A program made the position numbers and the translations under genes. The notes under the pieces were generated by a model, which was given only the letters and a program-made list of their open reading frames with translations, did no database searches and was not told where the DNA came from. A stretch of 64,000 nt of DNA from Kitasatospora sp. A2-31 (lineage in GTDB: Bacteria > Actinomycetota > Actinomycetes > Streptomycetales > Streptomycetaceae). This document shows positions 61,239 through 63,948 of the stretch, piece by piece; within the stretch, counting starts at the first letter, position 1; the number at the start of each line of letters is the position of its first letter. The DNA is taken from NCBI RefSeq assembly GCF_022288725.1, contig NZ_JAKNTA010000003.1, positions 623,738-687,737 of the forward strand, in the 5' to 3' direction.

Positions 61239-61801
61239 CCGGGCCGGCCGTGACGGCGGGCGGCCCAGCCGAGCTGCCGGTACCCGCCGCGGAAGTAGAG
61301 GAGCGGGCGGCCGCCCGGGTCGGGCACCACGGCCTCCAGGACGCGGCCCAGCAGCAGCGTGTGGTCACCGGCGGGTATCCGCTGCTCCGTGCGGCACTCG
61401 ACGGTGGCGAGCGCGCCGTCGATCAGCGGCGCCCCGCTGAACGGGCCCCGGTGGTGCGGCGCGTCGGCGAACAGCAGCCGGTCGCTGAGCCGGCCCTTCA
61501 TGGCGAACCGCGAGCCGAGCGCCTTCTGCCCCTCGGAGAGCAGCGAGACGGCCCAGGTCTCGGCGCGGGAGAGCACCTCGTCCATCCGGGAGTCCTCGCG
61601 GACCGAGATCAGCACCAGCGGCGGTTCCAGCGACACGGACAGGAACGAGGTCGCGGTCATGCCGACGTCCTCGCCGTCGTCCGGGTCGTGGACGGTCACC
61701 AGGCTCACGCCCGAAGCGAGCTGGGAGAGTGCCGCCCGGAACTCATCGGGCGTGGCTTGGGTGGCAGCTTCCGGCTGCGGGGACGAGTACACGTACCGCA
61801 C
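60935..61801 (-). CDS. Flavin reductase domain protein, with antisense C-terminal extension
   Basis: The N-terminal 175 residues are a flavin-reductase-like FMN-binding domain (FRAALSQLASGVSLVTVHDP, GMTATSFLSVSLEPPLVLIS, RFAMKGRLSDRLLF, GDHTLLLGRVLEAV). It supplies reduced flavin to a monooxygenase or nitroreductase. Homologues end near LLYFRGGYRQLG (about 61270), but no stop occurs until 60935, which puts 304 bp antisense to arfB. The start is probably GTG 61801 or 61792. I suspect a lost stop or a sequence error near 61240-61260. Confidence 0.72.
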   Translation of the reverse strand: MRYVYSSPQPEAATQATPDEFRAALSQLASGVSLVTVHDPDDGEDVGMTATSFLSVSLEPPLVLISVREDSRMDEVLSRAETWAVSLLSEGQKALGSRFAMKGRLSDRLLFADAPHHRGPFSGAPLIDGALATVECRTEQRIPAGDHTLLLGRVLEAVVPDPGGRPLLYFRGGYRQLGWAARRHGRPGYSPRGDRRPCFSSERCRLLDSRRSTMPRLGFVALRAFGGGAVASPSTDASRAAATSRLRHCERCSEARTTSTRPSTSRPASRSRARCFHTSGSASEAARS

Positions 61802-62027
61802 GGTAGTCGCCGCGAGCCGTGAACGGCATCGGGCCGTGGTCGTAGGACCACCGTTGCAGAAGTCACGGTTCGCGGCCGCGCTCACCCCCAGGAGTGAAGG
61901 CAGGGGGCCTGCCGGCCGTCCGGAGGCTTCAGTGCGCGACCAATGCGGCCGACCACCGGAAATGTTCCGATAAAGCCTTATGTCCCGCTCTGGGGCGGAT
62001 GAGCTGAATAAAGGCGCATAAGTCTCG

Positions 62028-62043
62028 TGTGATTTAAGTCACA
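62028..62043 (+). promoter_or_regulatory. CRP-type palindrome upstream of the cdgB-like gene
   Basis: TGTGATTTAAGTCACA: perfect TGTGA-N6-TCACA in the AT-richest part of the window, 118 bp before the start of the diguanylate cyclase gene. Streptomyces Crp recognises GTG-N6-GNCAC-like sites, so Crp binding is plausible; it is not shown. Confidence 0.55.
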
Positions 62044-62160
62044 AGTGATGGCCTATTGCTGACCGAGCGTGCCGAACGCTGTGCTCCCTGTGATTCAGTT
62101 CTTCTGGCAATCGGACGATAACCATTCAAGAACTATCCGAAGCAGCCGGGGAGCCCCCGC

Positions 62161-63948
62161 ATGGAAGCCGAGTCGGAGCCCTACGTCCGTCTCGCGACCC
62201 TCCGCACCTTGCACCGGGTCGTGGCGGACCTCAACGCTGCCCGCAGCCTGGCGGGCACGCTGCAGGCCGTCGTCGAGGGTGCGGTGCACGGGCTCGGGTT
62301 CGACGCCGCCGCGGTGAGTCTGGTCCGGCCGGACGGCGACCTGGTGGTGGCGGCCGTCTGGGAGCTGGAGGAGAGCGCCATGGGCGGCCCCTCCGTACTG
62401 CTGGGGCAGGTCGGCTCGCGCGAGTCCTGGGACCGGCTGCTCGGCGTCAGCGACCACTGGGGCACGCTCCGCTTCCTCCCCTACGACCGCGGCTGGGCCG
62501 TGGCCAGCGACATCCCGCGCTGGATCGGCGACGGGCCGATGCCGGTCTACGCCAACGACTGGCACCCCGCCGACGGCCTGCTCGCCCCGATGTACAGCGC
62601 CGGCGGCGACCTGCTCGGCGTCCTCTCGGTGGACCGCCCGCGCAGCGGCAAACGGCCCGGGGCCTGGACCCGCGAGGCGCTGGAGATGTTCTCGCTGCAG
62701 GCCTCGATCGCGATCGGCAACGCCCGGCTGCGGGCCGAGATGCAGCGGGCGCTGGCCCGCCTCGAGAAGGAGCAGCAGGCACTGCGGGCCAGCGAGGAGA
62801 GCTTCCGCCAGGCCTTCGAGTACGCCCCCAGCGGGATGGCCATCACCGAACTGCACGGGGCCGGGCGCGGCCAGCTGACCAGGGTCAACGACGCGCTCTG
62901 CCGGCTGCTCGGCCGCCCGCGGGCGGTGCTGCGCCAGCAGAGCTTCGCCGACCTCGTCCACCCCGACGACCGCGCCCTGCTGGAGCGGACCAGCGCCGAG
63001 AGCGGTCGGGCCGAGCTGCGGCTGTCCCGGCGCGACGGCGGCTACCAGTGGGTCTGCCTGCGCAACTCGATCGTCGCCGACGCGGCGGAGGGGCCGAGCT
63101 TCCTGCTCACCCACGTCGAGGACATCGAGGACCGCAAGCGACACGAGCTCCAGCTCGCCCACCGGGCCAGCCACGACGCGCTGACCGGCCTCCCGAACAG
63201 CGCCGAGCTGAAGGCCCGGCTGGCCCGCCGGCTCTGTCCCGAGCCGCAGAACACGGGCGCCGCCGGACCCGGCGACGGATCCCACCCGCAGCCGTACGGC
63301 GGCCACCGGCCCGACCCCTACGCCGGGTTCGACGGCCCGGACGGCGCGGAGTCGCGCGCCGAGCCGGTGCACCACTACGGCGCCGAGGGCTACCCGCCGC
63401 CGGCCGCGCCCGACGCCCCGCTCGGTTACGGCGAGCACGTCCACGCGGTGGTCCCGGCCGACCACGCCGTCGGCGGCGACGTCTGGTCCGGCCCCTTCCG
63501 CTCGGGCGGGGCCGCACCGGTCGACAAGGGCCTCGCCGTCATTTTTTGTGACCTGGACGGGTTCAAGTCGATCAACGACCGGTTCGGCCACAACGCCGGC
63601 GACGCCGTCCTGGTCGAGGTGGCCCGTCGGCTCAGCCAGGCCGTCCGGGACGGCGACACGGTGGCCCGCCTCGGCGGCGACGAGTTCGTGGTGCTGGCCG
63701 ACGGCATCGGGCGGGAGGAGGCCAAGGACCTCGCTCACCGGCTGCGCAACGCGATCATCCCGCCGATGCGGATCGACGGCCGGGCGATGCGGGTCGGCGT
63801 CAGCCTCGGCATCGGCTGGGCGGGCTGCGGGATGAGCATCGAGGAGGTGCTGCACACCGCCGACGAGCGGATGTACGACGAGAAGCGGGCCCGGGGCGGG
63901 GCGGTGCGCGGAGCCCGCGGCGAGCGCTCGCACCGGCGGGCCGGCTAG
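62161..63948 (+). CDS. cdgB: GAF-PAS-GGDEF diguanylate cyclase, CdgB-like
   Basis: 595 residues: GAF (about 28-185), PAS/PAC (about 218-325), GGDEF domain. DALTGLPN (about 340) is separated from CDLDGFKSINDRFGHNAGDA (about 463) by about 110 residues rich in Gly, Pro, His and Tyr. Active site RLGGDEFVVL (505-509) is intact, and so is the inhibitory I-site RDGD five residues before it. No EAL domain. Synthesises c-di-GMP, which holds Streptomyces in vegetative growth via BldD and RsiG-WhiG. ATG 62161 with GGGGAG. Confidence 0.9.
   Translation: MEAESEPYVRLATLRTLHRVVADLNAARSLAGTLQAVVEGAVHGLGFDAAAVSLVRPDGDLVVAAVWELEESAMGGPSVLLGQVGSRESWDRLLGVSDHWGTLRFLPYDRGWAVASDIPRWIGDGPMPVYANDWHPADGLLAPMYSAGGDLLGVLSVDRPRSGKRPGAWTREALEMFSLQASIAIGNARLRAEMQRALARLEKEQQALRASEESFRQAFEYAPSGMAITELHGAGRGQLTRVNDALCRLLGRPRAVLRQQSFADLVHPDDRALLERTSAESGRAELRLSRRDGGYQWVCLRNSIVADAAEGPSFLLTHVEDIEDRKRHELQLAHRASHDALTGLPNSAELKARLARRLCPEPQNTGAAGPGDGSHPQPYGGHRPDPYAGFDGPDGAESRAEPVHHYGAEGYPPPAAPDAPLGYGEHVHAVVPADHAVGGDVWSGPFRSGGAAPVDKGLAVIFCDLDGFKSINDRFGHNAGDAVLVEVARRLSQAVRDGDTVARLGGDEFVVLADGIGREEAKDLAHRLRNAIIPPMRIDGRAMRVGVSLGIGWAGCGMSIEEVLHTADERMYDEKRARGGAVRGARGERSHRRAG

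Follow-up and report, generated by a model that had tools for sequence, protein, structure and literature searches.

Whether cAMP signaling reaches the synthesis of c-di-GMP through a palindrome in front of a diguanylate cyclase gene, and in which direction it would act there, is the question raised by this locus. CdgB is one of the core c-di-GMP synthases, and c-di-GMP times sporulation in Streptomyces, as described in PMC6205966. Within the window, by which we mean the whole 64 kb stretch of DNA that was analyzed, four features are considered:

62028..62043, no strand assigned: CRP-type palindrome TGTGATTTAAGTCACA, a perfect TGTGA-N6-TCACA
62056..62072, plus strand: BldD-type box, made up of TTGCTGACC (62056-62064) overlapping TGACCGAGCGTGC (62060-62072)
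62089..62099, plus strand: invariant element TGTGATTCAGT, present in 81/81 sequences (the window and the best 80 of 588 relatives)
62161..63948, plus strand: cdgB-like gene, 595 aa, a GAF-PAS-GGDEF diguanylate cyclase according to domain matches

The palindrome and its conservation

The first-pass annotation had described a perfect TGTGA-N6-TCACA at 62028-62043, lying in an AT-rich pocket 118 bp before a cdgB-like diguanylate cyclase gene, and each part of this description held. The sequence, TGTGATTTAAGTCACA, and its coordinates were exact, the distance from the last palindrome base to the ATG (62161) was 118 bp, and GC content fell to 40% at 62000-62049, compared with 72.6% for the window. 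The gene product has the GAF-PAS-GGDEF architecture expected of CdgB, with Pfam matches to GGDEF (6.7e-35), GAF (5.5e-9) and also PAS, and RDGDTVARLGGDEF in the translation contains both the GGDEF motif and the RxxD inhibitory-site motif. We took this architecture together with an intact GGDEF motif to define a CdgB orthologue, and both are found in the window gene, whose nearest named orthologue among the matches listed is that of K. aureofaciens CPD02 (93% identical). The GGDEF domain seems to be split by a segment of ~85 residues rich in Pro and Gly (residues ~357-450), and the Pfam GGDEF match covers profile positions 31-158 only. Near the start of the window, TGATCCTGGCTCA was noted at 301-325, where we presume a 16S rRNA gene.

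The palindrome was the sole zero-mismatch instance of TGTGA-N6-TCACA in the 64 kb window. When up to two mismatches were allowed, 5 matches were found versus 10.0 expected from shuffled sequence, so that only the perfect match is exceptional. A first-order Markov simulation of 150 windows, each as long as the real one, produced 3 perfect sites altogether (∼0.02 per window), and in 15 Streptomycetaceae genomes the perfect palindrome was counted 131 times, compared with once for a reversed control pattern.

Conservation in close relatives, which the first-pass annotation had proposed as a check, was evaluated in the best 80 of 588 relatives confirmed by a scan of genome contigs; these and the window make up 81 sequences, referred to below as the best-80 set. 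The site was kept in 80/80 of these relatives, which leaves the first-pass reading unrefuted by this check, and was perfect in 79, the single imperfect one (L076) having one mismatch. The commonest form, TGTGACTTGAGTCACA, was present in 50 of the 81 sequences of the best-80 set, where variation was mostly confined to the inner six bases and the gap between the palindrome and the matched protein start ranged from 89 to 408 bp, the palindrome lying farther upstream in L034 (408 bp gap). Streptacidiphilus fuscans carries two cdgB loci on different scaffolds (L021, L022), both with the same promoter palindrome.

Across the family, a search for the exact promoter module at fixed spacing was positive for 374 of the 394 Streptomycetaceae genomes covered, versus 0 for the control. 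When one mismatch was tolerated, 390 of these genomes had the palindrome; the 394 are mutually related genomes rather than independent samples. Among the 20 genomes lacking the exact module, 19 had an orthologue and 16 had the palindrome, either perfect or with a single mismatch, including 2 in which a perfect palindrome was accompanied by an altered downstream element. The palindrome was absent at this threshold upstream of the orthologues of G014, G015 and G029, and the orthologue search among these 20 genomes did not find cdgB in G130. Outside the family, the loci of 5 class-level relatives with 41-48% identity contained no perfect site. The idea that the palindrome is a functionless product of chance is, in our estimation, next to impossible; conservation throughout the family with a zero-hit control, together with rigid spacing, speaks against it, and the module search and the Markov simulation rule out a chance origin. 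In the best-80 set, the flank to the left of the palindrome was weakly conserved and the right side was rigid, which ties the site to cdgB rather than to the divergent flavin reductase gene, for which a role is disfavored.

The promoter module

The module comprises three parts at near-fixed spacing, namely the palindrome, the BldD-type box and the invariant TGTGATTCAGT. In the window, TGACCGAGCGTGC differs by one mismatch from the BldD consensus TNAC(N)5GTNA, as quoted in PMC4151990. TTGYTGACC was located 11 or 12 bp past the palindrome in 79/81 sequences of the best-80 set, and in the remaining 2 the TTG part differed while TGACCC...GTACC was retained. All 81 sequences of this set had TGTGATTCAG either 44 bp (62 sequences) or 45 bp (19 sequences) after the palindrome, and the invariant element was 33 bp from TTGYTGACC in 79/79 of those with both.

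It is possible that TGTGATTCAGT represents a core-promoter or start region. Its conservation is stricter than that of the palindrome, it resembles neither a -10 box nor any motif that we can name, and in some species it is found inside an imperfect CACTG-N5-CAGTG dyad. Streptomyces orthologues (e.g., L024, L026) have a second conserved block (∼GGAGTTGCTGTCGAGGTCTCGGGGAGAGCGA) immediately ahead of the start codon, and the spacer between this block and the promoter module varies in length. A promoter scan around the site returned no sigma-70-like promoter, a terminator scan returned no terminator, and no RNA element of the leader was matched in Rfam across 61700-62300. If TGTGAT were to serve as the -10 sequence, the centre of the palindrome would be near -64 or -65, off the phase of E. 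coli class I promoters.

BldD has been reported to control cdgB directly (PMC3781837; PMC4151990), and in S. ghanaensis the cdgB promoter was bound by BldD in EMSA (PMC7026642). In S. venezuelae, the region upstream of cdgB is also bound by WhiA (PMC3781837), and the portions of the literature available to us name no input to cdgB other than BldD and WhiA.

Candidate readers of the palindrome

The first-pass annotation had assigned the palindrome to the CRP type, an assignment that agrees with two published motifs, since the window site fits both GTG(N)6GNCAC, quoted as the strong S. coelicolor Crp motif in PMC10033298, and the GlxR consensus TGTGANNTANNTCACA, quoted in PMC4254451. In the best-80 set, 78 of 81 cdgB sites, the window included, fitted GTG(N)6GNCAC, and the GlxR consensus was fitted fully by 11 sites and with one mismatch by 69. 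The source genome encodes two full Crp/Fnr-type factors, one of which is Crp. This Crp and its best solved relative, M. tuberculosis CRP (E 2.1e-83), are identical over the recognition-helix stretch GASRETVNKALADFA, and M. tuberculosis CRP was found by ChIP-seq to bind an E. coli-like palindrome (PMC4117774). A Crp gene was present in 61/61 sampled Streptomycetaceae genomes, at full length and 83-100% identical in 60; the copy in G011 is broken by frame changes that are probably assembly errors. At the level of sequence, the Crp-type reading of the site is supported.

Gao 2012 reportedly mapped S. coelicolor Crp by ChIP-chip, with 393 published targets. A Crp-cdgB link may already be contained in the published data of Gao 2012 or of the CdgB study Tran 2011. 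The literature excerpts used here, which do not extend to these two studies, yielded no binding or expression data on Crp at Streptomyces cdgB. Streptomyces Crp has resisted assay by EMSA (PMC10033298), and one DNA-affinity study recovered it nonspecifically on all promoters tested (PMC12093943).

The main rival to Crp is Rex, a sensor of NADH/NAD+, which by binding the site as its operator would control cdgB and pass redox state on to c-di-GMP. The S. avermitilis Rex motif TTGTGAANNNNTTCACAA resembles the site, and TTGTGACCTGCTTCACAT is among the footprints of Rex, which also bound probes having three mismatches (PMC5355995). When the cdgB sites of the best-80 set were compared with the 14 fixed bases of this 18-mer, they showed 2 (1 site), 3 (53), 4 (26) or 5 (1) mismatches, placing 54/81 within 3 mismatches of the Rex motif and 27/81 at 4 or 5. 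Rex-type sites were nearer to it, with 1-2 mismatches at nuoA (8/8), 0-1 at cydA (2/2) and 1 at ndh-type genes (2/2). In addition, the Rex half-site TGTGAA/TTCACA was found in just 1/81 cdgB sites of the best-80 set, and the Crp motif was fitted by 78/81 of these but by only 2/12 Rex-type sites. Because the nuo, cydA and ndh-type sites match the Rex motif better than the cdgB sites do, this motif comparison favors Crp, and Rex, which fits less well, is disfavored as the reader of the site; we regard a Rex operator at cdgB as improbable.

In 8 genomes searched for perfect palindromes, the most widely shared set was near nuo genes (8/8), the cdgB set was found in 6/8, and smaller sets were seen at cydA and at an NADH dehydrogenase-type gene; a cluster of TetR-associated sites was left out, its loci being grouped by weak family similarity. 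The perfect palindromes near nuo, of Rex type, are those of L085, L126, L137, L142, L152, L162, L169 and L177.

Another factor with the same specificity, either a second Crp-like protein or a member of a different family, might also read the site. Besides Crp, the source genome does encode another Crp/Fnr protein with two domains, whose helix is ASREAVARLLKGL, and similar sites occur at fatty-acid desaturase and FAH-family genes. However, the second Crp-like protein was patchy, being detected at E 1e-30 in 25/61 genomes and with at least 56% identity in only 12/61, whereas the palindrome is present in ∼99% of the Streptomycetaceae genomes searched. This distribution rules against the second Crp-like factor, and we consider it very improbable that any such additional reader is responsible. 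Perfect palindromes recur near the fatty-acid desaturase gene in L136 and L171, and near the FAH-family gene in L086, L140 and L179.

Proposed regulation of cdgB and comparison with known systems

We consider it likely that the palindrome is a cAMP-Crp operator, most probably one that activates cdgB, with feedback by c-di-GMP-loaded BldD on the same promoter. Crp-cAMP would occupy the palindrome as an operator of the cdgB promoter and would most likely activate the gene, such that cAMP would raise c-di-GMP synthesis. BldD loaded with c-di-GMP would then repress cdgB from the adjacent box, creating negative feedback, and the combination of two second messengers at one promoter would contribute to timing the switch from vegetative growth to sporulation. 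In this scheme we infer Crp occupancy, cAMP dependence, and activation over repression at cdgB.

Deletion of sco3571 accelerated growth and sporulation (PMC12093943), and deletion of cdgB enhanced sporulation in S. venezuelae (PMC6205966). Phenotypes give partial, in places contradictory, support to activation of cdgB by Crp. Crp could instead bind and repress cdgB, or act as an anti-repressor against BldD, as diguanylate cyclase genes are repressed by cAMP-CRP in P. putida and V. cholerae (PMC11139211), and the palindrome is merely 11-12 bp from the BldD-type box. Set against this, the palindrome is upstream of both the BldD box and the invariant element, which would be the usual side for an activator, and the faster sporulation of the crp deletion is a better fit to lost activation. 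Repression or anti-repression by Crp appears unlikely, and activation is the direction we prefer.

Since the site is kept in nearly all of the relatives compared, cAMP probably helps to set the level of c-di-GMP, which controls the timing of spore formation in these antibiotic-producing bacteria; a near-universal candidate Crp-type operator would be a specific link from cAMP to c-di-GMP. For S. venezuelae, repression of crp as well as of cdgB by WhiA has been reported (PMC3781837), and a Crp-type operator would offer a route by which WhiA could act on the two genes in a coherent loop. More tentatively, the module could be a family-wide, ancestral integrator of two messengers, turned on by Crp-cAMP and off by BldD-(c-di-GMP) in a fixed geometry, with cdgB as the main point where cAMP enters the developmental clock of the Streptomycetaceae.

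Streptomyces Rex operators (nuoA, cydA, ndh-type) have a palindrome similar to that of the cdgB sites, but the latter, in the best-80 set, nearly always lack the TGTGAA half-site and carry more mismatches. The target promoters of S. coelicolor Crp (SCO3571) share the GTG(N)6GNCAC motif with 78/81 cdgB promoters of this set. Sites of M. tuberculosis CRP (Rv3676) and Corynebacterium GlxR are likewise of the form TGTGA-N6-TCACA, and the window site fits TGTGANNTANNTCACA exactly; these regulators belong to other genera, and the literature excerpts found mention no cdgB-type target for them. In Gram-negative bacteria, diguanylate cyclase genes are already known to be under CRP control (PMC11139211), and the cdgB site stands out by its unusually strong conservation. 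As proposed for cdgB, a cAMP receptor acts on a c-di-GMP-making gene in the case of P. putida gcsA and V. cholerae CdgA (PMC11139211), but in those Gram-negative species the effect is repression, whereas at cdgB we propose activation, next to the box of a c-di-GMP-dependent repressor.
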